Shown piece by piece: positions 3,599 through 33,109 of a stretch of 33,109 nt of DNA (its first letter is position 1; each line of letters starts with the position of its first letter). The stretch is from assembly GCA_016218495.1 (NCBI GenBank), contig JACRDU010000014.1:1-33109 (forward strand). Direction: 5' to 3'. Under the pieces are notes generated by a model. That model was not told the origin of the DNA. It was given only the letters and a program-made list of their open reading frames with translations, and searched no databases. The stretch is from Elusimicrobiota bacterium (GTDB taxonomy: Bacteria; Elusimicrobiota; Elusimicrobia; UBA1565). Position numbers and translations under genes: made by a program.

Positions 3599-3647
3599 CC
3601 GAGCATAGCGCAGGGAATGGTCGTCCGATTTTCGGTAGGGAGCGACC

Positions 3648-7937: not shown

Positions 7938-7939
7938 GT

Positions 7940-8872: not shown

Positions 8873-8873
8873 T

Positions 8874-12063: not shown

Positions 12064-12079
12064 GTTCTTCTCGGGCGAG

Positions 12080-12088
12080 ATGATATCA
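12080..12088 (-). promoter_or_regulatory. Extended -10 upstream of the 3-dehydratase operon
   Basis: The 35-nt gap between tlyA and the 3-dehydratase gene is AT-rich in a GC-rich background. On the minus strand it contains TGATATCAT, an extended -10, 16 nt before the ATG. The block ATTTGATAyCATC is shared with the minus-strand promoter before the membrane-protein gene at 1803. No clear -35 is seen. Confidence 0.45.
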
Positions 12089-12098
12089 AATTGAAAAT

Positions 12099-12827: not shown

Positions 12828-13552
12828 AGACGCCCCGCAGCCTCGGCGTCGAGGACCCATAGGGGCGCGGCGCCAGAAGGCTTGACCAAGGCGGCCGGGG
12901 TGTCGCCGTCCACGAGGGTCCGCCGGACGGCTTCGGCCTTCGGCTCGCCTACGACGAGGAATACGGTCAGGCGCGCGCCCGACAGGGCGGGGGGGGTCAG
13001 GGTGAGCCGTACGCGGGGGCCTTCATGGAGGGCGGCGCCCGGCGCGCGGTCCCCGTCCGGGCGGACGACGGCCACCCAGCGCTGCGATTCCTCGAGCGCC
13101 GGAGTGCCTGGGAACAGGGAGGCGGTGTGTCCGTCGGCGCCAAGGCCAAGCAGCTGGAGGTCGAAAGCCGGGGCCGCCTCCTTGGGCCAGCGCGCCCGGA
13201 GCAGAGTCTCGTAACGCCGGGCGTCGGCGGCGGGGTCCTTGGCCGCGGTGGGCATGGGATGGACGGCGGCCGCCTTGGCCGCGGGGAGGAGGATGTCCCG
13301 GGCCGAGCGATAATTTGAATCCTTGTGGTCCTCCGGGACATAGCGCTCGTCGCCCCAATAGAGTTCCGCAGCCTCCCAGGGCAGGCCGCGGCGTTTGGCC
13401 AGCAGGAAAAAGACGGCCTTGGGCGTGGCCCCTCCTCCGAGGCAGAGGGTGTACTTCCTGCCCGCATTGGCGGCTGCGAGGAGGCCCTCCTCTATAAGGG
13501 AGGCGCAGGCGGCGGCGGCCTGGGCGGGGGTGGGGTGGACTTGGCGGGGCAT
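12824..13552 (-). CDS. pgl: 6-phosphogluconolactonase
   Basis: A 242-residue DevB/SOL-family protein, the second enzyme of the oxidative pentose phosphate pathway. Signature segments: LCLGGGATPKAVF (phosphate binding), YWGDERYVPEDHKDSNY, and LLGLGADGHTASLFPG (catalytic His region). The ATG at 13552 gives the normal family length. In-frame upstream ATGs would overlap the divergent lipoprotein gene. No SD is visible, but a good -10 (TACAAT) ends 5 nt before the ATG, suggesting a leaderless or nearly leaderless message. It overlaps tlyA by GTGA. Confidence 0.93.
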   Translation of the reverse strand: MPRQVHPTPAQAAAACASLIEEGLLAAANAGRKYTLCLGGGATPKAVFFLLAKRRGLPWEAAELYWGDERYVPEDHKDSNYRSARDILLPAAKAAAVHPMPTAAKDPAADARRYETLLRARWPKEAAPAFDLQLLGLGADGHTASLFPGTPALEESQRWVAVVRPDGDRAPGAALHEGPRVRLTLTPPALSGARLTVFLVVGEPKAEAVRRTLVDGDTPAALVKPSGAAPLWVLDAEAAGRL

Positions 13553-13557
13553 AGGCG

Positions 13558-13563
13558 ATTGTA
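13558..13563 (-). promoter_or_regulatory. -10 element of pgl-tlyA
   Basis: TACAAT on the minus strand matches the sigma-70 -10 at five of six positions and lies 5 nt before the pgl ATG. No matching -35 is seen at 16-18 nt. Confidence 0.4.
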
Positions 13564-13592
13564 CGAAGTGACGGGGGGTGACGGGGATGGGG

Positions 13593-13621
13593 TTGCGCGA
13601 CAAGGCCTTATCAGGAATACT
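13593..13621 (+). promoter_or_regulatory. Promoter of the small lipoprotein gene
   Basis: TTGCGC (13593-13598), a 17-nt spacer, then AATACT (13616-13621). The -10 ends 7 nt before the ATG at 13629, so transcription should begin at or next to the start codon. Confidence 0.45.
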
Positions 13622-13628
13622 TGGGGTC

Positions 13629-13820
13629 ATGAAACGGACTCTCTTGCTGGTGTCTTTCGCGGCGGTCTTGAGCGGTTGCGCGGCGTTGCGGGCCCGGGAG
13701 CCCAACCTGGCCATGCCCACCGACCCGATGTACATGTCCGAGCACTGCCGGGAGCTCATGGACGAGTGCATGGGAGATATCAACGACCAGGCGCAGTGCA
13801 AGAGATCGACGGGATGTTGA
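13629..13820 (+). CDS. Small predicted lipoprotein
   Basis: A 63-residue protein. The N-terminus MKRTLLLVSFAAVLSGC is a lipoprotein signal with lipobox LSGC, so Cys17 would be lipidated and the mature protein is only about 47 residues. The mature part contains four further cysteines (SEHCRELMDEC..., CKRSTGC), which suggests disulphides in the periplasm. A start at 13578 in the same frame would bury the signal sequence and is rejected. It is followed closely by the kinase promoter. Function unknown; no family recognised. Confidence 0.7.
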   Translation: MKRTLLLVSFAAVLSGCAALRAREPNLAMPTDPMYMSEHCRELMDECMGDINDQAQCKRSTGC

Positions 13821-13834
13821 GTCGTCGAGGTCCC

Positions 13835-13863
13835 TTGACACGTACAGGGGGGGTCTTTACACT
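13835..13863 (+). promoter_or_regulatory. Consensus-like sigma-70 promoter of the TPR-kinase gene
   Basis: A perfect -35 TTGACA (13835-13840), a 17-nt spacer and TACACT (13858-13863). The predicted start site near 13870 leaves a short leader with GGAG 6 nt before the ATG at 13883. This is the strongest promoter in the window. Confidence 0.75.
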
Positions 13864-13882
13864 CAAATTACCGGAGACTTCC

Positions 13883-16303: not shown

Positions 16304-17143
16304 CTCGACGAGGCCCTCGGCTTCGGACTCGGCGTTGGCCAGCGCGCGCATCTCGTCGGCGTTGAGCGGTTCCACCCCGTCCGCCACGGCCTGCCTGAGC
16401 TGCAGGTAGAACTCGGCCCGGGTCCGCAGCTCCCGGATCTCGGAGCCGGGGTTGCGCTTGAGGGTGCCCCGCTCCACCCCCTGCGCCAGCTGGGCGCCCC
16501 AGAAGCGGACCTTGAGCGGCAGGGCGTAGGACTGCAGGTCGCCCACGCGTCGTTCCCAGCCCTCGCAGCGCCTGTCTCGGGAGCGGGGCTTCCCCTCCCA
16601 CCACGGGGTGAAATCGCCGTCGAGGGTCGGGGGAGGGGGGACGGACAGGCCTCCGAACGCGCCGCCCACGAAGGCGGAGGGCTCGGGCCAGTCCGGCTTG
16701 ATCTCCGCCGACGAGGCTCCGAGGACTCGGGCGTCGGCGGCGTGGATGAGGCGCAGGTTGACCTCGACCTTCCGGGAGGACTTGCGCACAAGGCTGCCGG
16801 TGACGATGGCGTCGACCCCCATCAGCTTGCCGACGCTTCCGGCGTCGGCCGCGGCCACGGCCCCGGACTGGGCCAGGCGCTGCTCCTTCATGACACGGTC
16901 CAGCAGGCTGCGCTCGACGACCTGGATGCCCGGCTGGCGGGCCAGCTCGCCGACCAGCCTCTCGCCGACCACCGCCGCCCCCTCGGCGTCCGGCGCCCCG
17001 AGCGGCTCCACGCTCATGACGGCGATGCGGCGCACGCCCGCCTTCTGGGCGGCCCGGGCCAGCTCGGCCGCCATGCCCCGGTAGTCGTTCGCCGCCGCCT
17101 GGGAGGCGAAGAGGACGGCGGCGGCCAGCGCGGCGCTTCCCAT
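16289..17143 (-). CDS. CsgG/FlgO-like exported protein
   Basis: A 284-residue protein with a signal-peptide N-terminus (LAAAVLFASQAAA). The conserved core is RRIAVMSVEPLG, then VVGERLVGEL, VVERSLLDRVMKEQRLAQSG and LMGVDAIVTGSLV. This pattern is shared by CsgG, FlgO and related proteins that bind or assemble at the outer membrane. No lipobox is visible, so it is probably periplasmic. The C-terminal ~110 residues are not recognised and have three cysteines. The start at 17143 sits 6 nt after a promoter -10. It faces the kinase gene tail to tail with overlapping stops. Confidence 0.75.
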   Translation of the reverse strand: MGSAALAAAVLFASQAAANDYRGMAAELARAAQKAGVRRIAVMSVEPLGAPDAEGAAVVGERLVGELARQPGIQVVERSLLDRVMKEQRLAQSGAVAAADAGSVGKLMGVDAIVTGSLVRKSSRKVEVNLRLIHAADARVLGASSAEIKPDWPEPSAFVGGAFGGLSVPPPPTLDGDFTPWWEGKPRSRDRRCEGWERRVGDLQSYALPLKVRFWGAQLAQGVERGTLKRNPGSEIRELRTRAEFYLQLRQAVADGVEPLNADEMRALANAESEAEGLVELCDG

Positions 17144-17993: not shown

Positions 17994-18352
17994 TGGTGGA
18001 GGTGCCGGGGTGCCGCCCCCCGGGTCCAGGAGACATCCTTCGGGGCCACTACAGGCTTAGTCCGCTTTTTATCTCGCCTCGGGAAAACCGGCGGACGAGT
18101 GTCCCGAGGCCAGCTCCGTGTTGGTCTCGACAGGCCGCCGACGAAGCGCGCGGCGTCCCGTCCAGCCTGCTCTTGACGCCGGCAGCCCCCCAGCAGGCGT
18201 CGGGGACCGGCGTGAACTCACTGCGGGTTAGGCAGTGGCCCAGGCCAACGGAGTGTTGGCTTTTGTTTTTTGGTCAGATTTTATCCTGGCTCTGACCAAC
18301 CAGGGCCTGCGGCTTCCCTACAAACGTTCCCTGTCGAACCTATCTCACCCCC
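17994..18352 (-). ncRNA. ssrA: Transfer-messenger RNA (tmRNA)
   Basis: A 359-nt tmRNA. The 5' end GGGGGUGAGAUAGGUUCGACAGGG pattern (first 7 nt GGGGGUG) pairs with CACCUCC before the encoded ACCA 3' end (one G-U). The 3' part contains GGACUAAGCCUGUAGUGG, the conserved tmRNA segment. Pseudoknot PK1 is clear: CCUGG/CCAGG interleaved with UUGGUCAGA/UCUGACCAA. The reading frame for the tag starts at GCC (18260) and runs to UAA (18230-18228), encoding ANTPLAWATA; the stop lies in a hairpin loop (CACUGC/GCAGUG), the usual H5 layout. Oddity: the T-arm is a 6-bp CCGGGG/CCCCGG stem with loop GGCGGCA rather than UUCRANY. It rescues stalled ribosomes with SmpB. Confidence 0.93.
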
Positions 18353-18456: not shown

Positions 18457-18611
18457 GGCCTTGTCATGGAGCGCCATGATGAAAGCCGTTCACCAAAATA
18501 ACAGCTGTCATTCCTGAAGACCGGAAGAAGGGGGGGCCCGCGTTCGCGCGGGTCGCGGCGTTCGCCGTTGTCGCCGCTCTCGCCCCCGGCGACGCGCGGG
18601 CCCTGACCATC

Positions 18612-20762
18612 ATGTACCCGGGCGAGGGCCTCAAGACCGTCGTCTCCGCGACCGGCGCTGTCGTGAAGAAGACGCTCGACTCGGACTGCTGTCTGGCCCT
18701 CGGGGCCAAGGCGGCCCTCGGAGCCATCGACCCGGACCGCTGGGCGGCCCGTTTCGACAAGTTCGACATGAGCCTGGGCGGCTCGGTCTACCACAACGCC
18801 GTCAGCGGCGATCGGTCGCGCTCCTTCCTTAAGAAGGGGTGGCGGACCCAGGAGACGCTGACTTTGGCGGCGACCAAGCGCCTGACGGGCCTGGCGGGCG
18901 GCGAGTTCGACTTCCAGACCTCGATGCGCAACACCGACGACCGCCAGGTCGACAACGAGCGCCACATGCGCCTGCAGGGCTTCTCGATGGGGCTCAAGCG
19001 CCCCGACGACTTCGAGCTGCGGGCGGGCAACGTCAGCGGGAACTTCAGCTCGTACAGCCTCTCGGCCGGCGCGGAGCTGGGCCTTCAAGGAACGAAGAAA
19101 TTCGGAGCCGAGGGTAAGGCGGGCGAGGCGCTGTTCTACTACGGCGTCCCGACCCAGCACGTGGGCAACAAGCAGTTCGACCGCCATGTGATGGGCGCGC
19201 GCGTGGCGGGGCTTAAGGGCGGCGCCTTCTTCGACGGCGTGGGGCTGAGCCTGGTGCGTACGAAAGACGACGCCGCCAGCATCGACAACCCCGCGGTGCG
19301 CCCGGCCAACGCCGTGGACAGCCAGGTCGTGGCGGCTGACGGCAAGTTCAAGCTGGGGAAGGCCGCCACGCTCAACACCGAACTGGCTTTTTCCCGTACC
19401 GATGCCGACACCCAATCGGGCGCGGCCTCCTTCAAGCACGGCACGGCCTTCAAGGCCGACGGCTCCTACAAAGCGCCAGACGCCCTGGGACTTTCGGCGC
19501 CGAGCCTCACGGCCTCCTTCGAACAGGTCGCCCCGGATTACGTCTCGGCCAGCGGCGGCGGTTCGGCTGACGGTCGGCGGCTCGGGGGCGGGGTATCGAG
19601 CGCGTTGGGCCTGCCGGGCCGCGGGCCCAGGGTGACGCTCTCCTACAGCGGGAATACGAGCCGCAACAACCTCGAGGGGCGGCTGGCGCGGACCAACTCC
19701 TCGACGGTCCACAGCGCGAACGTCGGGGTGAAGCCCTTCGAAAAGGCCGTCGCGGGGGAGGGCTTCGCCGCCAGCCTCGCCAAGAACCTGAGCCTGGGGA
19801 CCGCGTTCGGCCACAACACGAGCGACACGAGCGACGACTCCTCGGGGAGCACCGTCCGCAGCCGGAACTTCACGCTGGGCACCTCGGCGGGGAAACAGAC
19901 CCTCTCGACCTTCGTCAACTACCAGAAGACCGAGGAGCGCACTGCGGCCACCGGCGACCGCGAGAGCCGCGGGCTCGGCGCGAACTACGTCCTCGCGGGC
20001 ATCCCCTGGGGCTTCCCGAAAGCCAAGCCCGTCAGCTCGGACCTCGCGGTCAACCTCACGCAGACGCGCGACCGGACTTTGGACGCGGCGGGCGGGTCGC
20101 TGCAGCGCGCGATGAAGATCGGGGCGCAGACCAAGGTCAACGACGACGAGACGCTGGCGCTCGACTACGAGCTGGCTTTCACCGGCAACGACACGGCCAA
20201 CAGCGACGTCCGCAACGAGAACTGGAAGGTGGCCTACGCCATCTCGAAGTTCATCAAGGAGGAGGGGACGTTCGCGGTCTCGTACACCTCCAAGCGCACG
20301 ATGGAGGCCGTCTCCACTCGGAACTACCGCGAGGAGGTCTGGCGCGGGGATCTGGCCCTTAAGTGGGGCGGGGGCAAGCCCTCCGCGCCCGGCGAAGCGC
20401 CGGTCACTACCGAGGAGGCCCGGGCGGCCGTCGTCCAAATCCTCGAGGCCTTCGACGGCGCCGAGCCCTCCAAGTTCCTGGCCTTCGTGAGCCCGGCCTT
20501 CAAAGACGACCGCGCGGCCTTCGAGCAGCAGGTCCGGGCCGAGTTCGACAAGGTCGACGCGGTCAAATACGAGACGGTGTCGGTCCTGAGTTTCATCGCC
20601 GACGGCGACATCCTCGAGGTCACCTTCGTCTGGCAGCGCCGCCGGCGCGTCTACGCCACCGGCGCCGAGGAGACCGTCACCGGCATCGCCGTCTTCCGCT
20701 TGGACAAGGTCGGCGGCAAACGGATGCTCCAGGAAATCCGGCGCACGAACCCCCTCTTCTGA
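18612..20762 (+). CDS. Beta-barrel outer-membrane protein candidate with C-terminal NTF2-like domain
   Basis: At least 716 residues. From about 50 to 590 the chain shows alternating polar/hydrophobic strands, many Gly/Ser/Asn turns and few long hydrophobic runs, as in outer-membrane barrels. The last ~115 residues (TTEEARAAVVQILEAFDG onward) look like a separate NTF2-like alpha+beta domain. The first canonical start is ATG 18612, but the frame stays open upstream to 18483 and there encodes a good signal peptide (FARVAAFAVVAALAPGDARA) with no ATG, GTG or TTG. The real start is therefore upstream: either a rare codon (ATT 18510), or entry from ATG 18466 by a -1 shift at AAAA (18495-18498). The next gene begins at the stop (TGATG). 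No porin family is recognised. Confidence 0.75.
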   Translation: MYPGEGLKTVVSATGAVVKKTLDSDCCLALGAKAALGAIDPDRWAARFDKFDMSLGGSVYHNAVSGDRSRSFLKKGWRTQETLTLAATKRLTGLAGGEFDFQTSMRNTDDRQVDNERHMRLQGFSMGLKRPDDFELRAGNVSGNFSSYSLSAGAELGLQGTKKFGAEGKAGEALFYYGVPTQHVGNKQFDRHVMGARVAGLKGGAFFDGVGLSLVRTKDDAASIDNPAVRPANAVDSQVVAADGKFKLGKAATLNTELAFSRTDADTQSGAASFKHGTAFKADGSYKAPDALGLSAPSLTASFEQVAPDYVSASGGGSADGRRLGGGVSSALGLPGRGPRVTLSYSGNTSRNNLEGRLARTNSSTVHSANVGVKPFEKAVAGEGFAASLAKNLSLGTAFGHNTSDTSDDSSGSTVRSRNFTLGTSAGKQTLSTFVNYQKTEERTAATGDRESRGLGANYVLAGIPWGFPKAKPVSSDLAVNLTQTRDRTLDAAGGSLQRAMKIGAQTKVNDDETLALDYELAFTGNDTANSDVRNENWKVAYAISKFIKEEGTFAVSYTSKRTMEAVSTRNYREEVWRGDLALKWGGGKPSAPGEAPVTTEEARAAVVQILEAFDGAEPSKFLAFVSPAFKDDRAAFEQQVRAEFDKVDAVKYETVSVLSFIADGDILEVTFVWQRRRRVYATGAEETVTGIAVFRLDKVGGKRMLQEIRRTNPLF

Positions 20763-23700
20763 TGAAGACCTTCCTTTATAAGAGCCTAGCCTCCCTCGTG
20801 GCCCTCTCGGCGGCCTTCCAGGCGCCCGCCGGCGTATTCGCGGCCGCCGTTTCGGACGAACGGCTGGTGAGCCTGTCGGACGGCTCGAAGGCCTTCATTT
20901 TTAAGCTGTCGGGATACGACGCGGCCAAAGACGGGGACATCTTTCTCGTCATGACGGACCGGGGCCGCAGGACCGTCTTCCGGCCCCAGGAAAATCCGTT
21001 GTCCGACGCCGAATGGCAAGGCTATAGCGGCGTCCGACTCCCTGTCCGCGCCCGCCCTACCAAGTTCCAGGTCGTCGCTCTCAATCCGGCCGCGGGGATC
21101 ATGGCCCCGGTCCAACCTCCCTCAACCCCGCGCGGCATCGTCATTCACAAAGCGCCTACGATGACCCTGAATCCGTACTCCGGTCTACGCCGGATTGTCG
21201 GAGAGCGGGCGTTCGGAATTCTCACGCTCAAGTTGGAGGCGAACGGGGACGCCAGAAACGGCTACGACCTCTATCCCACGGTCAAGGTCCAGGACATCGG
21301 AAGCGTGACCGGAAAGGGCCGGTGGGCTCCCGATTCTCCGGCGACCACCCTGAACTTCGAGGCCGCCAACATCTTTAAGGAGCGGATTTCCAAGGGCCTG
21401 GGGGCGGGGCTGGCCTCCGGATCGGTGACTCCCGGAGACAAGGTCTTCGTCACAGTGACTTTGCCCTCAGCATGGACGGAACGCCTGAAGTCTGGCGATT
21501 TCAGCTCCGCAGCTCAGGAGGCGATCGCCTCCGCTTCGGATGTGAAAGCCGAATTCAAGATTCCCTTAAAGCTCAAGCTCGACCCAAAGCGGGACCCCTT
21601 CGACATGACGGCCACTGTGGACCCGGTGGGGAGGACCGCGACCCTGATCGTGGATTCCGGGCAGTCGTGGCAGAAGCCGTACGGGCTCTTGCCAGTGACG
21701 TTTTCGGCCTTCGAGACGACGACTGGGCCGGACTTCAGCGGCTTCACTCTCAAGACATCCGGGGATTTCGACTTCATCCTCAAATCTCCCGTTTCGCTGG
21801 AAGTCACGAAGTCCGGGTCCTCGGCCAACGCCAAGATCGCCCTCAAGCCCTCCGCAGACTTCGCCGCCGAGGCGCTAAAACTCGCGGGCATCCCGACCGA
21901 CCTCAAAGACATCGTGACGCCGCTGCTCAAGTCCATCCGGATGGGGGAAGTCTCCATTCCCTCGTTATCGCTCGACGGTTCTCTCCCGGATGTCAACGTC
22001 AAGTTCCGCATCGACACGCCCAAGTGGGCCAAGGACTTCGACATCACGGTCCCCAAGGTCGATTTCAGCCTGCCCAGCGACTTCGGCGCGGCCATCGCCA
22101 AAGTGGTCTTCCCGGAATTGCGCGCGAACTTCGACGCCATCGCGCTGGGCCTCGCCTTGGGCGGCCTGAAAGGGCGCTGGACGTTGGTCGACCTTTCGGC
22201 GGATTGGGGCAGCCTCAAACTCGACGCGGAGGGCTCCGCCGACAAGGGCTACACCCTGGCCGGCGCCGCCGCGCTTAAGGACGCCGGAAGCTTCAAGATG
22301 GACGGCGCGTGGAGCGCCGCCAGCGCCGCCGCTCCCGCCGTCTTAAAGGTGGACAACGCCGCCGGCCCGGTCTTCGCCTCCCTCCTTGGGAATGCCTTCC
22401 CCAAAGACCTGTTGACGATGGACGACAAGATTACCGCCACGCTCGGCCTCGACCAGGCCTGGATAGACGCCCTCAAGCGCGGAGGGACCGCGTCAGGGAG
22501 GTCGGCACCGGCGAAGAGCTACAGCCTGGACTTCCTCGTCCCGTTCAAGGTCAAGCTCGACCCCAGACGGGAACCTTTCTCGATGACGGCCCGCGTAGAC
22601 GCCGTCGGCAAGACGGCCGGCGTCGCCTTCGACTCCGGGCAGACATGGAAACAGCCGTTCGGAGTGCTCCCGGCCGAGTTCTCCTCTTTCGACCTCACGA
22701 CCGGAGGAGGCTTCAAGGGCTTCACGCTCAAGACCTCCGGCTCGTTCGACTTCGTCGTGAAGTCTCCGGTGGACTTCGAGTACTCGCGATCGGCCGAGGG
22801 CGCCGCGAAGGCCGCGGTCAAACTCCGGCCCTCGAGCGACTTCGCGGCTGAGACTTTGAACCTCGCCGGCCTACCCGGCGAATTCCAGGATTTCCTGCGC
22901 CCGCTGCTGCGCTCGGTCAAGATGGGCGAGCTTTCGCTTTCTTCGTTCGCGCTCGACGGCTCCCTGCCCGACGTCCGGCTTAGCTTCCGCATCGACACGC
23001 CCCGCTGGGCCAAGGACTACGACATCACGGTGCCCAAGGTCGACCTAAAGGCGCCCCGGGCGTTCGCGGTGGAGGTGGGGAAGGTCGTCATCCCGGACCT
23101 GCGAGCCAACTTCGACGCCATCGCCCTGGGCCTGGCGCTGGGCGGGCTCAGCGGCCGCTGGACGCTCATCGACCTCGACACCGACTGGGGCGCCCTCCGG
23201 CTCGACGCCGAGGGATCGGCGGCGGCCGGCTACACGCTCGACGGCCGCGTGACTCTCGACGGCGTGGGGTCCTTCGCCGCCGACGGCGCCTGGAGCGCCG
23301 GCTCCGCCGACGCGCCGCTGGTCATGACGGTGGACAACGCGGCCAAGCCCCTCTTCGAGGCCTCGTTGGGGAAAGCCCTGCCCAAGGGCTGGGTGGGCCT
23401 CGGCGACAAGCTCACGCTGACCGTGGGCCTGGCCCCGGAGTGGATCGACGCGCTCAAGAAGGGCGCGGCGGCCCCGGCCGGGGCGGCTTCGCCGGGCCGC
23501 TACGACCTCGAAGTCTCGGTCCCGCTCACCCTCAAGATCGACCCGACGAAGGAGCCCTTCAAGCTCACCTCGCGCCTCAAGCCCACGGCGAACTCGACCT
23601 CGCTGACCCTGGACGCCGGCCAGCGCTGGGCCGAGCCCTTGGGCCTGCTGCCCGTCACCTTCCAGACGCTGGGGGTCTCCAGCGACCTCGCGCTCACGAC

Positions 23701-26700
23701 CTGGAAGGTCTCCGCGGCCGGAGACATGGACTTCTTCAAGCCCGTGCCGCTCTCGCTCGACGCCACCGTGGCCGACGGGAAGGTGAGCCTGCTCAAGCTC
23801 AACGCCTCGATCCCGGACGGTTTCTTGGACGCCGCGCTCGTCTCCGTGCCGCTGCCGGCCGCGGGGGCGGTCCCACTCGAGGAGCTCAAGTGGGCCCTCG
23901 GGGAATTCATCAAGAACGTCAAGCCCGGCTCCATCGACATCACGCTGCCCGGCTTCGACGCCAAGGCCGTGGACCTGGGCCTCAAGTTCAGCGTGGAGCT
24001 CCCAAACTGGCGCCACGACTTCGACGTGAGGATCCCGGGCGTGACCCTCAAGGACCTCGGCAAGATCTCGACGGCCCTCGGCGACGCCGTCATCCCGGTC
24101 CTCATCGCCAACATCGACAAAATCACCGCGGGCCTGATTTTCAAAGGAATCTCGGGCAAGTGGCGCCTGGGCAGCCTCGACCTCGGAGTCGCCTCCGCCG
24201 TCTTCGACGCGGAGGGGGACGCGCAGAAGGGGTACGCCTTGACCGGGAAGGTCACGGTCAAAGAGGCCGGCGACTTGACCGTCGACGGCTTCTGGAGCCC
24301 GTCGACCCCGCTCGAGCCCATCACATTCACGACCGACAACGTCTTCAAGACGGCGATGGAGAAATCCCTCGCCAGGCTCGTTCCCAAGGACTGGCTGAGC
24401 TTCGGCGACAAGATCACGGCGAAGGTCGGGCTCGCCCCATCCTGGGTCGAGCGTCTCAAGCGGGGCGGCCGGGCCGCCTCGCAATCGACGGAGTGGGGCG
24501 AGGAGAAAATCTCCCTCGAAGTGACGATGCCCCTTACCCTCAAATTCGACCCCACGAAGCCCGCCTTCAAGATGACGGCCAAGGCCGAGCCGCTCGACAG
24601 CCTGCTCTCCCTTACTTTCGATCCCGGCCAGACCTGGGACAAGCCGCTCGGGCTCATCCCCGCCAAGTTCGACCGGCTCTCCGTCGGCGCGGACCCCTCT
24701 TTCACCACGCTCTCCATCGCCGCCGAAGGAGACCTCGACTTCCTCGTCCCCTGCTCCGCCGCGCTCAAGGGCGAGGCGAAGGGAGGCAATCCCGCCGCAT
24801 TCAGCGCGGCCCTGCGCCCCAAGAACGGGAACATCGTCGAGGCCCTCCTAAAGGGCCGCGTGCCGGCCGCCATGCAGGCCCTCGTCAACGGCCTCCTGCC
24901 AGGCACGGTCGTCGAGGAGCTCTCCGTGCTGACGAACCCGGCGAAGTCCAAGCCGGACGTCCGGCTCAAGTTCACGATGGCGAAGGACTCGCTCTCGCAG
25001 AAGTTCGACATCCTCGTCACGGAGACCGACCTCTCCACCCCCGACGACTTCGCCGCGAAGGCCGCCCCGCAGGTCGTCGACCAGCTTTCGAGCGGCGCCA
25101 TCGGCGGCGCGGCCACGGACGTGCTCGACAAGCTGGGGCTCACCGGCGACTGGACCATCGTGAACGTCAACCTGGCCGACAAGCTCGTCTTGACGGCGCG
25201 CGCCAAGGGTTCGCCCAAGAAGGGCTACGACCTCTCGGCCGCCTTCAAGCCGCTGGTCTTCGACAAGACGACCCTCACCGGCCGCTGGGAGCCGGCCAAG
25301 CCGACCGACCCCGTCAAGCTCACCGCCGACAAGAACGTCTTCAAGCCGCTCTTCGAGAAGACCCTCGGCGCCCAGCTTCCTCCGGGCTGGATCACCCTCA
25401 AAGACGAGCTCTTCGTCACCGTCACCCTGCCGTCGAAGGCCGTGGACGCCTTGAAGAGCGGCGGCGCGGGCGCGGACTCGGGCGCGTCCGGCGCCGACGG
25501 CCTGCAGATCGAGCTGGGTTTCCCCGTCAAGCTCAAGATCGACCCCACGAAGAAGGCCTTCGACATGGTGGCGAGCGTCTTCCCGCTCCAGGGGCAGGCT
25601 CAATTGGCCCTCGACGCCGGCCAAACCTGGGAGAAGCCCTACGGCTTCATCCCCGCCACCTTCAACACTCTTTCGGCCGCCTCCGACCCCAGCTTCACCC
25701 AGGTCACCGTCCACGGGGAGGGAAGCTCGGATTTCCTCGAGGGCTCGAAGCTCGAGTTCGAAGTGGATGTCGTCACGGTCAAGGACCAGAGCCCGAAGCT
25801 AAACATCAAGACCAAACCCAGCCCCGACCTGGTCAAGGCAATCGTCAACAAGGTCAAGCTGCCGGCCACGCTGGCCGCGGTGCTGCCGGACATCAAGCTC
25901 GAGCGCTTCGAGATCAACCCCAATTTCGCCAGCCTCGCCTCGGGCGGCGGGGCGCCGGACGCCGAGCTCCGCTTGAGCCTCAACCACGAGCTGACCGGAA
26001 AGATCGAGCTCCAGGCCAAGATCCCCGCGGGCAATCTCAACGACCCCGCCAAGTTCGCCCAGCTCGCCGCCGAGCAAATCGCCTCCCAGATCCAGAAGGT
26101 GGCCGACCTCGGCCCGGGCCTCGTCAAAAACGCGGGCAAGAAGCTCACGGACGCCGCCCAAGACCCCGCCGGCACCGCCGAGGACAGTGTCAAGAAGGGC
26201 CTCAAGACGGCCGAAGAGCTCGGAGAGTCGGTCGAGGACTTCGCCAAGGACCCGTGGGGGAAGTCCAAGGACCTGGCTGAGGGCGCGGCCGACGCGGCGG
26301 CCTCGCTCGGGCAAGGCATCGCCGACGCCGTGGAGAGCCGGCTCTCCGCCGTGCTCAGCGACCCCGTCGGAGCCGCGGAGGAGGCCGCCAAGAAGGCGCT
26401 GGCGGCGGCCGAGGCGGTCCTCGAATCGGCCGCGGAGCTGCTCGAGGACGCCATCGAGTTCCTCGGGGACCTCGTCAGCGACGGCTGGGCCGTCTTGACC
26501 GGCGGCGAGACGAAGAAGGAGAAGGCCGAGCGCAAGAGGCGCGAGGCGGAAGAGGAGAAGGCCCGCGCCGAGAGGGAGGTGTGGGAGGCTCAGCGCAAGG
26601 TCCGTGAAGCCGGCAAGCTGGCGGGGCTGCGGACCCGTCTCAAGCAGGCCCGCTCCCTGGGCGATTGCGACTCCATCCTCGAGACGATGCGCGGCGACCG

Positions 26701-29700
26701 CGACCATTTCATCGCCAACATCTCGGGCCGGGACTTCTTCTGGTTCGCCTCCGCCGACTTCGCGAAGGCCGTGGCCGACGTCAAAGACGGCATCCAGAAG
26801 GCGCTCGACGCCAGCGCCGGCGCGAAAGGGCTCATTGCGGCCCGCATCGACCGGGCTTCGACGGCCGCCCAGCTCAAGGACCTGGCCAAGCTGCTGGCCG
26901 GCATCCCCGTCTCGGGCCTGCCCGACGCCTCGTCCCTCACCGACGACGACCGCGCGGCCCTCAAGGAGCAGCTCGACGGGCGCATTGCCGCGCGCTCGCG
27001 GGAGACCCGGGACTGGTACGATTCGCTCTTGAATCGGGCCGTGGAGCAGGAGGCCCTCTCCGCCATCGCCTCCTCCTGGAACGGGGACGCCGTCCCCGAC
27101 CACCCCGAGAAGGCCCTCCTCAACGAGAGCGACCGCAAGGCGCTCCAACCGGCCTACGACAAGAAGATGGCCGATCTGGCCGCGAAGGTCCTCAAGGGCA
27201 ACCTGTCCAGCCTCCAGCAGTTCATCACCACCTCCGAAGGCTTCCGGAAGGTGCGCCTCTACATCGAGGGCAAGGCCGACCTCGCCTCGGTGCGGCCATA
27301 TCCGTTCGGCGACATCCGCGTCCTCTCGGCGGCCCAGCTCAAGGAGCTCAAGGCCGGACTCGAGAAGTACGGCGGGAAGTACTTCCAGGCCGACCGCATC
27401 CGCGACTACATGAACCGGTCCGACGCCTCGGCGGACGAACTGTACAAGCTCAAAGACATGCTCAACGGCTACGGGACCGCCGGTCTCCCTGCGGAGCTCG
27501 GCAACCGCTCGACGATGTTCACGGAGCAGAGCACGGCCCTGTTGAGCGAGCTCAAGGACGTGATGATCCCGTTCACGGCGCTCGCGAACGCGCGTGCCTG
27601 GCTGGGCATGAACGACCCGATCAGGGCCCGCTGGGTCTTGGAGTGCGGCCGCCGAGAACCGGCCTGCACGATCTTGGATGTGCCCGTCGACAAGCTGCCG
27701 GCCGCGACGGCGGCGATCATAAAGTTGGAAGCCGAGGCCAAGCTGGCCGAGCTCGAGGAACTGCGCCCCAAGGTCCGCGAGAAGATCAAGGCCCTAGTGG
27801 CCGAGTCCCCTTCCTTGAAATCGCTCGACGCCTGGAGCCGCTATGTTTGCTCGACTCCTCAGGGCGAGAAGCCGACGGCGGACGCGCCATCGAAGGCGGT
27901 CCTGACTGACGAGGACACGAGCGACATCTGTTGGAAGGACATTTATCCGCGGCGCGACCAGGCGAAGGCGGTCGCCGACGCCCTCGCCGCGGCCCAAACC
28001 GACGACGAAGTCCGCGCCGTGGGCGAGAAGGTCAAGGCGGCGAAGCTCATGAATGCTTCGATCAAGGCCGATTATGAGGCGCAAATCGCGGCCCGACTCT
28101 ACGCGTCCGCCTACGGGCGTTTCTATGAATCCATCAAGGGCGCATGGACGGTCGCGGAGATGAAGGCTTTGCTGAAAAAGGTGGAGTCGACCGAGTTCAC
28201 CAAGGCGGACAAGGACAAGCTGGTCGCGACCATCGCCGACTTCCAGAGCGGCCTGGCCCGGCGGCACAAGGACAACTTCTCGACCAACACGTCCCTCGCC
28301 GTCCGGGACGAGGAGTTCAAGTCCGTCCTCAGCGGCATCGCGGACTCCGACGCGCTCAGCGAGGCCGACAAATCCGAGCTGCGCAAGGCGGTCGAAGCCC
28401 GCAAGGCCACCCTCAAAGTGGTGGGGTCGTTCGAGGCCATGAGGGAGGTCCGCGATCGGATCGAGGGGATCAAGGGGGACGTGCCTCCCTTCGGGCACAT
28501 GGACACGACTCTCACCGCATTCCTCGACAAAGGCGTCAGCGGCGGCTATGACCTCGGCGAGTATTCCATGCTTTCCGACGACGACAAGAAGGCCCTCCGC
28601 GCGGAGCTCAAGGCCGCGGTGGACGGCGGCAAGGAACGGCTCAAGGCCGCCGTCAAACGGGTCTCCGACATGATCGCCGGCGCGGCGAACGGGGCGGAGC
28701 TGGCCTGGGTCAAGAAGCGCGTCGATGACGGCACGTTCACCTACGGCTTTTCGGACGCCGACAAGAAGAGCCTCCTCGACGCCTGCGCCAAACGGGCGAA
28801 GGAATTTACCGGCCTGCAAGGCGACCCCGATGTCGCGGATTACATGATGCAGGTCAAGAGCGCGGTCCAAACGGCGACCCTTGACTACATCATCACGTCC
28901 GCCTCCTCCCGGAAACTCCGAGGCGACAGCGGGTACGACAAGGTCCTGACCGCCGCCCGTAACCGCTACCCGGAGGTCTTGAAGGCCGAGTCGATGGAAT
29001 GGGTCGCCGCCAAGCGCAAGACCTGGGCGGACGCCACCACAACGGATTCGCTCAAATACGATGCGACTCGAATCAAGAGCTACGCGAAGTCTCTCTATGG
29101 CGGGACTCGGTTCATTTCCGAGGCGGATGAAAAGCAACTCCTCAAGGAGCTTGATGCCCGGCTGGCCGAGCTCAAGGAACTCGAGGCGGCGGCCACGATT
29201 TCCCAGGCCGAGGGGACCGCGGAACTCGCCCGTCAAATCCTGGCCAAGAAGTTCCGGGCCTGGATCGTCGTTGAGACGGACCCAGCCCGCCTTAAGACCT
29301 GTTCCGACCTCCTTCTCAAAGCCGGGAAGTCGGTCGCCGCTCCCTCCGGAGCGGCCTGGATGAATGACGCGGCTCGAGACTTGCCCGAGGCGAAGAGAAA
29401 AGCCCTGGCCACCCTCGCGACCGAGCGGGCGTCGACGTTGGAGGCCGAGAAGAAGAGGGCGGACGCCGAGGCTCTCGTCAAGAAATTCAAGGACTGGATC
29501 GTCGCGGAATCTGGCATTTCCCGCCTCCAAGCCTGCACCGACCTCCTGACCTCCTACCCCAAGTCCGCGACTCCGCCAGACGGGGCGAGTTGGATGAAAG
29601 GCGCCGCCCTCGCCGACGTATCGGCCGCCGACCGCAAGGCGCTCGCCGTCCAGGCTTCGGAACGCAAGCAGGAGCTCCAAAGGACGGTTTTCACCAAATT

Positions 29701-30493
29701 CTGGGATTGGATCGCCAAAGAGAGCAACGTGGACAAGCTCAAGGCGTGCCAGGATGTCTTGGAGAAGTTTCCCAGGTACGCTTCCCCGCCGACGGGGGCC
29801 GACTGGATGAAGACCGGCGCCGGCGATATCGAGGCGGCCTCCCGGACGTCGCTGGCTTCCCAAGCAGCGGGTGAGATCAAGAGGATCGCCGCATACATGA
29901 AGAAGGCCGAGAGCGAGGGCGCCCTCAAGAAGTTCCGCGATTGGCTCGCCGCGGAGACGGACCCGGCCCGCGTCCAGACCGCCTCCAACCTCCTGAGCAA
30001 GTATCCGAGCTCCGTCACGCCGCCCTCGGGCGCCGACTGGATGAAGGACAGCGCGAAGATCCTCAACGACGCCGACCGCAAGACCGCGGCCGCTGAAGCG
30101 GCGGCGCGGGTCACCAAGGCGACCTTGGAGAAGGCCAAGAACACGATCGGGCCCATCTACACGATGGTGCTGGGGCGCGGGGCGGACGACGACGGGCTCA
30201 AGTGGTACTGGAGCCAGTGGGACTCTCTGGGCAAGGTCGGGGTCGCCAAGGAGCTCCTGGCGTCCGGGGAATTCAAAGGGAAAGGCCGGCGGGACAAGAT
30301 CAAGGCGATGTACCGCATCATCCTGGGGCGCTACGCGGATTCCGGAGGGGAGGACTGGTATTACAAGAAGTTGGACATGTGGGAGATTGAGGACGTCGCC
30401 AAGGACCTGGCCGGCAGCGACGAGTTCAACAGACGCCCATCGGCGGACCGGGACTTCGTGCAGGGGCTCATCGACGCGGGAGCGCTCAAGTGA
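20762..30493 (+). CDS. Giant secreted repeat protein with C-terminal DUF4214-like repeats
   Basis: 3243 residues with an N-terminal signal peptide (FLYKSLASLVALSAAFQAPAGVFA). Layout: a unique N-terminal segment to about 150; five beta-rich repeats of about 330 residues (about 150-1775), with anchor LKLDP.RDPF.MTA at residues 271, 597, 924, 1260 and 1591; Ala/Glu/Lys-rich amphipathic helices (about 1780-1910); a charged coiled coil (about 1915-1960); a long helical region; four helical repeats of about 71-78 residues near 2830-3120; and two DUF4214-like units at the end (IYTMVLGRGADDDGLKWY, MYRIILGRYADSGGEDWY). DUF4214 occurs in S-layer and adhesin proteins. The ATG overlaps the barrel stop (TGATG); the same frame open back to 20363 is rejected. 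Surface adhesion or envelope bridging is inferred. Confidence 0.85.
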   Translation: MKTFLYKSLASLVALSAAFQAPAGVFAAAVSDERLVSLSDGSKAFIFKLSGYDAAKDGDIFLVMTDRGRRTVFRPQENPLSDAEWQGYSGVRLPVRARPTKFQVVALNPAAGIMAPVQPPSTPRGIVIHKAPTMTLNPYSGLRRIVGERAFGILTLKLEANGDARNGYDLYPTVKVQDIGSVTGKGRWAPDSPATTLNFEAANIFKERISKGLGAGLASGSVTPGDKVFVTVTLPSAWTERLKSGDFSSAAQEAIASASDVKAEFKIPLKLKLDPKRDPFDMTATVDPVGRTATLIVDSGQSWQKPYGLLPVTFSAFETTTGPDFSGFTLKTSGDFDFILKSPVSLEVTKSGSSANAKIALKPSADFAAEALKLAGIPTDLKDIVTPLLKSIRMGEVSIPSLSLDGSLPDVNVKFRIDTPKWAKDFDITVPKVDFSLPSDFGAAIAKVVFPELRANFDAIALGLALGGLKGRWTLVDLSADWGSLKLDAEGSADKGYTLAGAAALKDAGSFKMDGAWSAASAAAPAVLKVDNAAGPVFASLLGNAFPKDLLTMDDKITATLGLDQAWIDALKRGGTASGRSAPAKSYSLDFLVPFKVKLDPRREPFSMTARVDAVGKTAGVAFDSGQTWKQPFGVLPAEFSSFDLTTGGGFKGFTLKTSGSFDFVVKSPVDFEYSRSAEGAAKAAVKLRPSSDFAAETLNLAGLPGEFQDFLRPLLRSVKMGELSLSSFALDGSLPDVRLSFRIDTPRWAKDYDITVPKVDLKAPRAFAVEVGKVVIPDLRANFDAIALGLALGGLSGRWTLIDLDTDWGALRLDAEGSAAAGYTLDGRVTLDGVGSFAADGAWSAGSADAPLVMTVDNAAKPLFEASLGKALPKGWVGLGDKLTLTVGLAPEWIDALKKGAAAPAGAASPGRYDLEVSVPLTLKIDPTKEPFKLTSRLKPTANSTSLTLDAGQRWAEPLGLLPVTFQTLGVSSDLALTTWKVSAAGDMDFFKPVPLSLDATVADGKVSLLKLNASIPDGFLDAALVSVPLPAAGAVPLEELKWALGEFIKNVKPGSIDITLPGFDAKAVDLGLKFSVELPNWRHDFDVRIPGVTLKDLGKISTALGDAVIPVLIANIDKITAGLIFKGISGKWRLGSLDLGVASAVFDAEGDAQKGYALTGKVTVKEAGDLTVDGFWSPSTPLEPITFTTDNVFKTAMEKSLARLVPKDWLSFGDKITAKVGLAPSWVERLKRGGRAASQSTEWGEEKISLEVTMPLTLKFDPTKPAFKMTAKAEPLDSLLSLTFDPGQTWDKPLGLIPAKFDRLSVGADPSFTTLSIAAEGDLDFLVPCSAALKGEAKGGNPAAFSAALRPKNGNIVEALLKGRVPAAMQALVNGLLPGTVVEELSVLTNPAKSKPDVRLKFTMAKDSLSQKFDILVTETDLSTPDDFAAKAAPQVVDQLSSGAIGGAATDVLDKLGLTGDWTIVNVNLADKLVLTARAKGSPKKGYDLSAAFKPLVFDKTTLTGRWEPAKPTDPVKLTADKNVFKPLFEKTLGAQLPPGWITLKDELFVTVTLPSKAVDALKSGGAGADSGASGADGLQIELGFPVKLKIDPTKKAFDMVASVFPLQGQAQLALDAGQTWEKPYGFIPATFNTLSAASDPSFTQVTVHGEGSSDFLEGSKLEFEVDVVTVKDQSPKLNIKTKPSPDLVKAIVNKVKLPATLAAVLPDIKLERFEINPNFASLASGGGAPDAELRLSLNHELTGKIELQAKIPAGNLNDPAKFAQLAAEQIASQIQKVADLGPGLVKNAGKKLTDAAQDPAGTAEDSVKKGLKTAEELGESVEDFAKDPWGKSKDLAEGAADAAASLGQGIADAVESRLSAVLSDPVGAAEEAAKKALAAAEAVLESAAELLEDAIEFLGDLVSDGWAVLTGGETKKEKAERKRREAEEEKARAEREVWEAQRKVREAGKLAGLRTRLKQARSLGDCDSILETMRGDRDHFIANISGRDFFWFASADFAKAVADVKDGIQKALDASAGAKGLIAARIDRASTAAQLKDLAKLLAGIPVSGLPDASSLTDDDRAALKEQLDGRIAARSRETRDWYDSLLNRAVEQEALSAIASSWNGDAVPDHPEKALLNESDRKALQPAYDKKMADLAAKVLKGNLSSLQQFITTSEGFRKVRLYIEGKADLASVRPYPFGDIRVLSAAQLKELKAGLEKYGGKYFQADRIRDYMNRSDASADELYKLKDMLNGYGTAGLPAELGNRSTMFTEQSTALLSELKDVMIPFTALANARAWLGMNDPIRARWVLECGRREPACTILDVPVDKLPAATAAIIKLEAEAKLAELEELRPKVREKIKALVAESPSLKSLDAWSRYVCSTPQGEKPTADAPSKAVLTDEDTSDICWKDIYPRRDQAKAVADALAAAQTDDEVRAVGEKVKAAKLMNASIKADYEAQIAARLYASAYGRFYESIKGAWTVAEMKALLKKVESTEFTKADKDKLVATIADFQSGLARRHKDNFSTNTSLAVRDEEFKSVLSGIADSDALSEADKSELRKAVEARKATLKVVGSFEAMREVRDRIEGIKGDVPPFGHMDTTLTAFLDKGVSGGYDLGEYSMLSDDDKKALRAELKAAVDGGKERLKAAVKRVSDMIAGAANGAELAWVKKRVDDGTFTYGFSDADKKSLLDACAKRAKEFTGLQGDPDVADYMMQVKSAVQTATLDYIITSASSRKLRGDSGYDKVLTAARNRYPEVLKAESMEWVAAKRKTWADATTTDSLKYDATRIKSYAKSLYGGTRFISEADEKQLLKELDARLAELKELEAAATISQAEGTAELARQILAKKFRAWIVVETDPARLKTCSDLLLKAGKSVAAPSGAAWMNDAARDLPEAKRKALATLATERASTLEAEKKRADAEALVKKFKDWIVAESGISRLQACTDLLTSYPKSATPPDGASWMKGAALADVSAADRKALAVQASERKQELQRTVFTKFWDWIAKESNVDKLKACQDVLEKFPRYASPPTGADWMKTGAGDIEAASRTSLASQAAGEIKRIAAYMKKAESEGALKKFRDWLAAETDPARVQTASNLLSKYPSSVTPPSGADWMKDSAKILNDADRKTAAAEAAARVTKATLEKAKNTIGPIYTMVLGRGADDDGLKWYWSQWDSLGKVGVAKELLASGEFKGKGRRDKIKAMYRIILGRYADSGGEDWYYKKLDMWEIEDVAKDLAGSDEFNRRPSADRDFVQGLIDAGALK
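21207..26090 (+). repeat. Five tandem ~980-bp coding repeats
   Basis: Diverged repeats with anchors at 21572, 22550, 23531, 24539 and 25532 (spacing 978, 981, 1008, 993 nt). Each unit has a GRWTL..LD..W..L.LDAEGS..GYTL half and a KLDP...PF.MTA half ending in FRIDTP.WAKDYDITVPKVD. Repeats 2 and 3 are most alike; the fifth is most diverged. All remain in frame, so copy number changes would preserve the protein. Confidence 0.85.
29252..30130 (+). repeat. Four tandem helical coding repeats (71-78 residues)
   Basis: Units begin F.(A/D)W at 29252, 29486, 29699 and 29933 (spacing 234, 213, 234 nt). Shared pattern: F.DWI..E....L..C.DLL..YP....PP.GA.WM, then an acidic helix ending D.KALA..A.ER. They directly precede the DUF4214-like units and may be a stalk. 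Confidence 0.75.
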
Positions 30494-31467
30494 TCCGGCC
30501 GGCCGCCCTCGCCTGTCTCTCCGCTCTCGCCTTCCCGGCGTCCGCTTCGGCGGCCGCCCCCGAGGCCATCCGGGCCGCCCAGGCCGACGCGGCGCAGGCG
30601 ACCGACGCGCTGGCCCGCGAGTTCGCCTTCTTCCTGCTGCGCGCCGACGCCGCGCTCACCGAGCAGGGCGTCAAGAAGCCGGCCCACCGCGAGGCCTTCC
30701 TCGTGCCGAAGGCCGACGCCCTCGGGGCCGACCTCATCCGCCGCTCCGAGGACGGCGCGCGGGCGGCGCTGGCTCTTTGGAAGTCCAAGGCGCCGGCGTT
30801 GTTCCCCACGATGGCCGAATTCTACCGCCTGGAGACGGACCGCCTGGCCGAATTCGTCCGGGCCGACCCGGACATCCTCCTCAATGAGATCCCGCTCGGC
30901 ATGGGACCCCAGGGGATCGAGAACCCCGCCTCCCTCATGGCCGCCGTCGCCGCCGCCACCGAGAAGGCCGACGCCGGGCCGGGTTTCGGCAAGCGTCTTC
31001 AGCGCGCGAAGGCCGCCGGAGACCTGGAGTTGGCGCGCGTGGCGGGCCGCCGCGTTTCGCTGGAAGCCCGCGCCGTCGGCGACGGCCTTGCCGACGCCTG
31101 GCTGGATTTTGCGGCGGCCGCCGGCGGCTCGCTCCAGGGCATCGACGACCTCGACACCCGCCGGGCCGTCTTGGGGCCGCAGGCGAGCAAGACCGGCGGC
31201 GAGTTCCTGGGGCGCTACGACCGGTTCGCCGCCGCCATGCGGACTTCATTCGCCAAGGCCGGACGCGCCGCCGCCGACGCGGCCGAGGCCGCGGTCGCGC
31301 TCGAGCGCGCTCGCCTCGAGCGCTTCTTCGCCGCCGACTTCGCCGCGCTCGAGACCGAGCGCCGGCGCGCGCTGAAGGCGGAGCTTCCGGCCGACGGCCG
31401 CTCCGTGCGCCGCTCGCTCGAGACGCGCGCGGCGATGGCCGTAGCCGGTGAGAAGGGGGGGCGATGA
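30490..31467 (+). CDS. Secreted helical protein of unknown function
   Basis: 325 residues with a signal peptide (RPAALACLSALAFPASASAA, cleavage near residue 23). The mature protein is Ala/Arg/Glu-rich and predicted almost fully helical; no cysteines remain after cleavage. Strongly charged helices near the C-terminus (ALERARLERFFAADF) could form a coiled coil. The GTG start overlaps the stop of the giant gene (GTGA), and its own stop overlaps the next start (ATGA), so it is made together with both. No family recognised. It may be a periplasmic chaperone or accessory factor for the large protein, which is inference. Confidence 0.75.
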   Translation: MIRPAALACLSALAFPASASAAAPEAIRAAQADAAQATDALAREFAFFLLRADAALTEQGVKKPAHREAFLVPKADALGADLIRRSEDGARAALALWKSKAPALFPTMAEFYRLETDRLAEFVRADPDILLNEIPLGMGPQGIENPASLMAAVAAATEKADAGPGFGKRLQRAKAAGDLELARVAGRRVSLEARAVGDGLADAWLDFAAAAGGSLQGIDDLDTRRAVLGPQASKTGGEFLGRYDRFAAAMRTSFAKAGRAAADAAEAAVALERARLERFFAADFAALETERRRALKAELPADGRSVRRSLETRAAMAVAGEKGGR

Positions 31468-33109
31468 TGCGCATCTTGGGAGCCGCGGGCCTCGCCGTTT
31501 TTGCTGCTGGAACCGCCTTCGCCGCCCCTACGCCCCCCGCGCGAGACAAAGCCGCGAAGGCCCTTGGCGCTTCCACCGACATCAAGAGCGGCGTTACCGT
31601 CGGCAAGGAGACCCGCCCCGCTCAGGTCCTCTCCGACAAGGATGCGGCCGCCTTACCGCCGCCCCTCGTTTCGGCGGCGGACTTCATCCGGGAAGGCCGA
31701 GCCGTACTTGCCAGCATGGCTGCCGGCCTGGCGGCGAAAGACGCGAGGGCGGCCTTCGCCCGCGTCGACCGGAATGCCGCTGTTTCGCTGGCCGGTAAGG
31801 CGGCCGGTTTGACCGACTTGAAACGTGAACTTGCCTCTTCTTTGACTTTGCTCGACAATCCGAGATGGACCTACGATCTCTTGTCGTCCTCCTACGATAA
31901 GGATACCGGCAAGGTCCGCCTCAAGGTGAAGTCTTCCTATTCAGCCGACCTCATGGAACCTTTGGGAGTCACCTCGGCTTCGATTCCGGTCCCGGAAGAG
32001 GTGAAGGCGTTTCAACGCTCGTTCAAGGAGTCCCTCAAGGCGTCCGGCGAGGAGACTTATGAATTGGCCGCGGGGTCGGGCAGGCTCCGGATCGTCTCGA
32101 TGACGTCGTATCTCCCCTTCGTCGGTAAGGGTCCCGTGGCGGAGCGCATCTCCCGCGTTTTGGCCGAGTGGAAGGTCAAGGTGGCCGTCTTCGCCCTCTT
32201 CGAGCGCGTCGAGAAGAACGACCCGACGGGCTTTGCGGCGCTCGTCGACGGGTCGTTCCTCAACGCCGACGACAACGGCTTCCGCCACTCACGTTCCGAC
32301 TTCCTCGAGTCGGCCAAGGCGGACCTCGACCACCTGACCTCCATCGACCACACCGTGCGCGTGCGGGACATCCGCCTGGATCCCGACCTCCGGACGGCCC
32401 GGGCGCCGCTCGATTGGGACCGGCGCGCGCGCATCGCCAATTCCCGCAAGGAATGGACCGTTTCGGGCCGGGTCACGACGCTGGGCTTCGAGAAGGACGG
32501 GGAGGCCTTCAGGCTCTCCCGCATCGAGGGGAACGCCCTTTTCGGGAACTCGAGCCGCTGGACCCGCAAGACGCTCACCGCCGCCGGCGAGCTCGACGGC
32601 ACGAAGGTGACGACCTACCAGTCCGTCGGCGACACGCGCGTCCTGGGGAACGCGGTCGCGGCCGACTACCCCGAGAACTCGAAGGCCCTGGCCGACAGCG
32701 CCAGCTCCGATGCGGCGGTCTCCTGTCCCGTCGGGAACTCTCAGACCTTCAACTTCACCGGCGCCGTCCAGCAGTTCGACGTTCCGACTGCCTGCCAGCT
32801 GACCATCAAGGTCTGGGGCGCGGGCGGCGGCGGGGGCGGCTGGGACGTGGGTCTGGGCGGCCACGGCGGCGGCGGCGCGTACTCGACGACGCAAGTCGCT
32901 CTGGCCAACGGGACGGCGCTCAAGGTCTATGTGGCCGGCGGCGGCGGGCTCGGCACCTCGTCGGCCAACAACACGGGCGGCGGCGCCGGCGGCTTCGGCT
33001 ACGGCGCGGGCGCGCGCGGGGGCCATGCCGGCGGCCAGGCCGCGACGACCTCGGGCGCGGGCGGCGGCGGCGGCGGGTCCTCCGCGGTGACGGACCAGGC
33101 CGGGACCAC
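31464..33109 (+). CDS. Secreted glycine-rich protein (3' end beyond window)
   Basis: Open frame of 548 codons running off the window. N-terminus MMRILGAAGLAVFAAGTAFA is a signal peptide. Residues ~70-330 contain one or two alpha+beta segments resembling NTF2-like folds (DPTGFAALVDGSFLNADDNG), similar in pattern to the C-terminus of the barrel gene. From about residue 420 a glycine-rich domain starts: QTFNFTGAVQQFDVP, then LTIKVWGAGGGGGGW with many GGGG runs and aromatic residues, like the Gly-rich (ALK/LTK-type) domains of secreted bacterial proteins. The ATG at 31464 overlaps the previous stop and has AGAAGGGGGG upstream. Probable surface protein of the same operon. Confidence 0.8.
   Translation, partial: MMRILGAAGLAVFAAGTAFAAPTPPARDKAAKALGASTDIKSGVTVGKETRPAQVLSDKDAAALPPPLVSAADFIREGRAVLASMAAGLAAKDARAAFARVDRNAAVSLAGKAAGLTDLKRELASSLTLLDNPRWTYDLLSSSYDKDTGKVRLKVKSSYSADLMEPLGVTSASIPVPEEVKAFQRSFKESLKASGEETYELAAGSGRLRIVSMTSYLPFVGKGPVAERISRVLAEWKVKVAVFALFERVEKNDPTGFAALVDGSFLNADDNGFRHSRSDFLESAKADLDHLTSIDHTVRVRDIRLDPDLRTARAPLDWDRRARIANSRKEWTVSGRVTTLGFEKDGEAFRLSRIEGNALFGNSSRWTRKTLTAAGELDGTKVTTYQSVGDTRVLGNAVAADYPENSKALADSASSDAAVSCPVGNSQTFNFTGAVQQFDVPTACQLTIKVWGAGGGGGGWDVGLGGHGGGGAYSTTQVALANGTALKVYVAGGGGLGTSSANNTGGGAGGFGYGAGARGGHAGGQAATTSGAGGGGGGSSAVTDQAGT

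Follow-up and report, generated by a model that had tools for sequence, protein, structure and literature searches.

A candidate outer-membrane display operon built from undescribed protein families in an Elusimicrobiota genome

We describe a four-gene operon, a candidate outer-membrane surface-display locus, at the right-hand end of a 33,109-nucleotide contig from an Elusimicrobiota bacterium (GenBank JACRDU010000014.1). This stretch of DNA, here called the window, corresponds to the whole of contig C20 in genome G000 (4.15 Mb, 165 contigs). Four successive open reading frames (ORFs) on the forward strand span positions 18612-33107 (Table 1) and overlap by 1, 4 and 4 nt at the junctions TGATG, GTGA and ATGA, as the original prediction had stated. 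The contig stops within gene 4, so the full operon may extend further. The same prediction credited all four products with signal peptides, which are clear for genes 2, 3 and 4; gene 1 has none when it is begun at the ATG at 18612.

Table 1. Positions of the operon genes, their domains and an upstream hairpin in the window
Feature	Position	Strand	Description and basis
Gene 1 (P1)	18612..20762	+	716 aa from ATG; outer-membrane beta-barrel (predicted) and C-terminal NTF2/SnoaL-like domain
Predicted barrel of gene 1	18762..20291	+	about 24 antiparallel strands, aa 51-560; AlphaFold2, Foldseek
NTF2/SnoaL-like domain of gene 1	20439..20705	+	aa 610-698; PF12680 (SnoaL_2) E=1.1e-3 (below cut-off), hhalign
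Putative signal-peptide-coding stretch 5' of first ATG of gene 1	18510..18602	+	inferred non-canonical start (ATT 18510 or ATA 18498)
Gene 2 (P2)	20762..30493	+	3243 aa, giant exported repeat protein; signal peptide MKTFLYKSLASLVALSAAFQAPAGVFA
Five ~330-aa repeats of gene 2	21215..26116	+	aa ~152-480, 481-808, 809-1141, 1142-1471, 1472-1785
Helical region of gene 2	26159..30181	+	judged helical from composition
~75-aa helical repeats of gene 2	29156-30142	+	aa 2799-3127
DUF4214 domain of gene 2	30245..30433	+	sole DUF4214 in this genome
Gene 3 (P3)	30490..31467	+	325 aa, GTG start; exported, judged helical from sequence
Gene 4 (P4)	31464..33107	+	548 aa, exported; open at contig end
Gly-rich region of gene 4	32772..33089	+	weak PF21722 match, 15.3 bits against a cut-off of 24.3
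Intrinsic-terminator-like hairpin 5' of operon	18242..18262	+	consensus scan, weak (3 in region against 1.2 expected)

An outer-membrane barrel is the predicted fold of gene 1, well indicated and short of proof. The AlphaFold2 model consists of helices at residues 8-47 (low confidence), strands that form the barrel, and an NTF2-like domain at residues 600-710; only some 45 helical residues precede the first predicted strand. The barrel candidacy proposed earlier is thereby supported by a 24-strand model, albeit one of low confidence, with TM-scores of at most 0.4. When the model was compared with the PDB using Foldseek, all 14 matches at E ≤ 1e-3 were outer-membrane barrels or ushers. PapC, FimD, MtrB, OprD, OmpF, Wzi, maltoporin and MOMP were among the matches, as were NTF2 and limonene-epoxide-hydrolase folds, the NTF2 folds lying just above an E-value of 1e-3. 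The C-terminal domain, which had been missed earlier, was modelled with a predicted local distance difference test (pLDDT) score of ~78. We assign the C-terminus of gene 1 and gene 4 to the NTF2/SnoaL-like superfamily, on the basis of a SnoaL_2 match over cut-off in the gene 4 relative at locus L032 together with profile comparisons.

Upstream of its first ATG, the frame of gene 1 is open to 18483 and holds no ATG, GTG or TTG in that stretch. It encodes a good signal peptide ending in PGDARA (PEDRKKGGPAFARVAAFAVVAALAPGDARA, followed by LTIMYPGEG), with a hydropathy of 2.73 against 1.75 for the start at ATG 18612. In full-length gene 1 copies of Candidatus Lindowbacteria, (A)LSIMYPGEG stands directly after the signal peptide and aligns with LTIMYPGEG of the window, and translation therefore probably begins at a non-canonical codon, either ATT 18510 or ATA 18498. 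A signal peptide on gene 1 needs either such a start or an indel.

The product of gene 2 comprises, in order, a signal peptide, a beta domain of ~90 aa, five repeats of ~330 aa, a probably helical region and a DUF4214 domain. The last of these had been recognized in the original prediction and stands (PF13946, 28.1 bits against a cut-off of 23.2, aa 3162-3224). The repeat layout needed correction: the ~330-aa repeats fill the N-terminal half, and a second repeat of ~75 aa lies near the C-terminus. The first two large repeats were modelled with an overall pLDDT of 74. The PDB was searched by sequence and by fold for the ~330-aa repeat without a match, and a known fold for it was rejected.

Gene 3 matched no family. 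A homologue comes after the giant protein at loci L015 and L027 of Lindowbacteria, and gene 3 showed no homology with the third gene of the related loci in the window's own phylum. Gene 4 contains a conserved stretch (aa 75-405) with at least one NTF2-like domain, followed by the Gly-rich region.

The closest relatives of the operon were found in another phylum. A scan of 84,980 named genomes with a profile of the ~330-aa repeat, a pattern scan that can miss distant kin, gave matches solely in two Candidatus Lindowbacteria genomes, and the repeats had no match in 341 genomes of the window's phylum. Full-length gene 1 was likewise confined to G000 among the genomes of that phylum, and is 40-50% identical to four Lindowbacteria copies. 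The gene 1 barrel is present in all three Lindowbacteria genomes examined, at 11, 8 and 3 places, some of which are fragments of a single copy broken up by stop codons or by the end of a contig. At L015, a 3537-aa giant with 46% identity to gene 2 over the repeats carries a DUF4214 domain (over cut-off) and then two F5/8 type C domains, and precedes the gene 3 homologue. At L027, the giant, gene 3, gene 4 and barrel genes stand in a row. The gene families are thus kept together in an unrelated phylum, and neither of the two outcomes that the original prediction had named as refuting it was observed.

Across Lindowbacteria loci, the gene 4 homologue precedes the barrel in all six that could be read (L027, L030, L032, L033, L038 and L077), with a gap of ~1.8 kb between the two at L033. 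Upstream, the large protein differs from locus to locus: L027 has a 330-aa-repeat giant with B_lectin, L032 Ig repeats, L033 ubiquitin and Ig repeats, and L077 a 1481-aa protein with ubiquitin-like sequence at its start. At L078, a protein starting with ubiquitin is fused to the gene 4 domain (49% identity). These arrangements suggest that the barrel and the gene 4 type protein form a constant core and that cargo is exchanged between loci. The original prediction had taken the short overlaps of the window operon to imply a fixed stoichiometry. Gene overlap does not entail this, and since the loci differ in gene order and in partners and swap the large protein, they would be better described as a constant barrel/NTF2 core with variable cargo than as a fixed four-part machine.

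Several features of these loci were recorded beside the core genes. All three Lindowbacteria genomes encode large exported proteins that start with a near-eukaryotic ubiquitin (MQIFVKT..GKTITLDVE..) right after the signal peptide, at L033:309-6644 (+), L040:3339-5714 (+), L077:2678-7123 (-) and L078:9633-15812 (+); for the L033 start, PF00240 gave E=2.3e-24, and three of the four proteins adjoin or are fused to a gene 4 homologue. At L026:1352-14586, a barrel copy is followed by a protein of the PorV/PorQ family (NF033709, over cut-off) as well as by a 4115-aa S8 peptidase/PKD/VWA protein. Just upstream of the intact giant/gene 3/gene 4/barrel set, L027:1503-6778 holds a broken barrel copy, interrupted according to the profile by in-frame TAA stops, and after it an ATPase-like gene.

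Distant relatives of the core also occur in the window's own phylum. Using the barrel profile, we found 17 genomes in which a distant barrel and a separate NTF2-domain match lie no more than ~2 kb apart (G158, G159, G160, G162, G164, G165, G174, G177, G182, G184, G186, G195, G202, G207, G213, G240 and G330). Most of the loci read continue with an NTF2 gene (the 'KWWIFGK' proteins) and then, as third gene, one for an exported protein of 880-1360 aa. In G240 and G329, a protein of ~1190 aa that contains the NTF2 domain is encoded instead, upstream of a second ORF. In profile comparisons, the separate NTF2 gene family matched the C-terminus of gene 1 (hhalign, 97.7%, E=1.7e-12), gene 4 (E=1.5e-4) and the third-gene C-terminus of the own-phylum loci (E=1.1e-5). 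One group thus keeps barrel and NTF2 domain as separate neighbours and the other joins them in a single protein, a pattern classically taken as a sign of interaction. G000 itself carries NTF2 genes of its own on contigs C155 and C19. The set on C155 (L075:4886-12843) is a distant one, made up of an 826-aa ORF, an NTF2 protein of 479 aa and an exported protein of 1357 aa whose C-terminus is a weak SnoaL/DUF4440 match.

With regard to origin, the barrels of the window and of Lindowbacteria group together in one clade (100/99) that excludes the own-phylum barrels. Repeats 3-5 of gene 2 are positional orthologues of those at L015 (49/59/54% identity, against ~30% off the diagonal), so most of the architecture would be older than the transfer. 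By sequence comparison, the left half of the contig is native: its TlyA is 77-78% identical in two same-genus genomes, and a run of five genes (7940 to 13801) is collinear with its counterparts in a same-genus genome, at 54-87% identity. It could be argued that the right half stems from another organism through misassembly or misbinning, given that the operon is missing in all relatives, including the two same-genus genomes, that its kin lie in another phylum and that the gene-order agreement stops at ~13.8 kb. The agreement of the five left-half genes speaks against this, as does composition. The G+C content of the operon is 0.672 against 0.687 in the left half, and its codon usage matches the left half and another G000 locus, not Lindowbacteria (mean distance in relative synonymous codon usage 0.064 against 0.12). 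A contig chimera is accordingly disfavoured and has, in our judgement, little chance of being correct. An old horizontal transfer is more likely: the operon appears not to be native to the window's lineage and would derive from a Lindowbacteria-like donor by a transfer old enough for it to have acquired the base composition of its host. Phage origin was rejected, with no relatives in viral contigs, as was plasmid origin, one repeat unit having been searched in plasmids without finding relatives.

Upstream of the operon, positions 1-13801 of the window hold nucleotide-sugar and polysaccharide biosynthesis genes (GHMP kinase, epimerases, an E1/transketolase pair and a DegT aminotransferase). Between the syntenic block and the operon, positions 13325-17143 encode a TPR-containing Ser/Thr protein kinase and a CsgG/FlgO-family protein, neither of which had a match on the same-genus contig.

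We hypothesize, with a probability of about one half, that the operon encodes an outer-membrane surface-display system in which a barrel–NTF2 platform serves interchangeable giant surface proteins. All four products would cross the inner membrane by Sec, signal peptides being seen for three and inferred for gene 1. Gene 1 is predicted to fold into a large barrel of about 24 strands that carries an NTF2-like domain. Gene 4, with its NTF2-like domain or domains and a Gly-rich or beta-helical tail, may dock on the barrel by NTF2-NTF2 pairing and act as an adaptor that hands over or holds the cargo, as gene order and fusions suggest. The cargo would be gene 2, a very large rod of five beta-rich repeats and a helical stalk ending in DUF4214, displayed at the surface and probably used for attachment. 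As gene 3 follows this kind of giant protein, it may be a cargo-specific partner or chaperone. Surface display in general we infer with the same balance of belief and doubt. That the cargo passes through the barrel is a more tentative suggestion, and rather doubtful.

Certain observations weigh against this interpretation. The barrel model is weak (pLDDT 60, predicted TM-score 0.43, five sequences, TM-scores of 0.2-0.4). No barrel adjoins the giant at L015, where an MFS-like gene lies upstream, and the barrels at L034 and L076 adjoin unrelated genes. By eye, the C-termini of the cargo proteins have no obvious common export signal.

The same genes could be read as a glycan or nutrient capture complex, in which the barrel would act as a transporter or diffusion porin and, following SusCD-like logic, the giant would be its surface-exposed binding partner, not exported through it. 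Relatives carry domains of the carbohydrate-binding type (F5/8C and B_lectin), porins (OprD, OmpF, LamB) are among the Foldseek matches, a distant homologue matches Porin_2 weakly, and nucleotide-sugar genes cluster in the left half of the window. The window gave no match to the TonB plug/receptor family or to SusD, however; the core stays constant beside very diverse cargo (Ig repeats, ubiquitin, 330-aa repeats), and the Lindowbacteria loci read do not include the sugar genes, which makes a capture complex unlikely. Alternatively, the four proteins could remain as a periplasmic or outer-membrane scaffold or sheath, with nothing secreted past the barrel. NTF2-like domains in several components could mediate multimerisation, and gene 3, helical and rich in Ala, looks like a scaffold protein, as does the second half of gene 2. 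Against this, related cargo carries F5/8C, lectin and Ig domains, which extracellular proteins typically have, and exchange of cargo is unlike a fixed scaffold; we regard such an envelope complex as distinctly unlikely.

Returning to surface display, a broader proposal can be put forward only speculatively: a new outer-membrane protein-export system, based on a 24-strand barrel and NTF2-like adaptors, may secrete or display interchangeable giants in Lindowbacteria, with one imported copy here, and a related three-gene ancestor or cousin may be widespread in the window's phylum. If true, an outer-membrane barrel/NTF2 platform unrelated in sequence to the secretion routes tested would be added to two poorly cultured bacterial groups. 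A simple genomic rule, a barrel beside an NTF2 gene, would then serve to find cargo, including secreted proteins that start with a near-eukaryotic ubiquitin domain. In the open-licence literature, no paper describing such a system was found.

Among known systems, two-partner secretion (TpsB/TpsA, FhaC/FHA; PMC5422565) offers the likeness noted in the original prediction: an outer-membrane barrel gene stands beside that of a very large exported repeat protein, and the cargo varies beside a constant barrel. The likeness holds at the level of function only. The earlier remark that POTRA, FhaC and haemagglutinin motifs are not visible agrees with our searches, in which the window proteins had no POTRA, ShlB, TPS or haemagglutinin match even at E ≤ 1; gene 2 has no N-terminal TPS (haemagglutination activity) domain, and there is no Omp85/ShlB barrel. 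ShlB (PF03865) was found in none of six genomes searched, although the control genomes were silent too. The significant Foldseek matches of gene 1 are ushers and porins rather than Omp85 proteins, and its predicted barrel of ~24 strands has an NTF2-like domain instead, with two further exported partners encoded alongside. True type Vb secretion by a diverged TpsB barrel and a TpsA giant is, on this evidence, highly improbable. Membership of two-partner secretion, usher, autotransporter and type IX systems was rejected, as family matches were lacking.

The chaperone-usher pathway is similar, at the level of the structural model only, in that PapC and FimD, 24-strand outer-membrane pores that move surface proteins, are the best Foldseek matches of the gene 1 model. 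It differs in that the window has no Pfam or NCBIfam match to usher or autotransporter families and no pilin or chaperone genes, and the TM-scores are just 0.2-0.4. Type IX secretion shares large multi-domain surface proteins, and a PorV/PorQ-family gene stands beside the Lindowbacteria barrel at L026, in whose genome a search for SprA_N gave no match. SprA_N was not over cut-off in six genomes including G000 and three Lindowbacteria, where the controls were silent and a divergent SprA is possible, and Pfam reported no type IX C-terminal sorting domain. Proteins that end in DUF4214 (PF13946) resemble gene 2 and its Lindowbacteria relative in having this domain over cut-off at the C-terminus; it is a domain of unknown function only, and the rest of gene 2 matches no family. 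We therefore file the operon as a variant of outer-membrane display operons, made of undescribed families.

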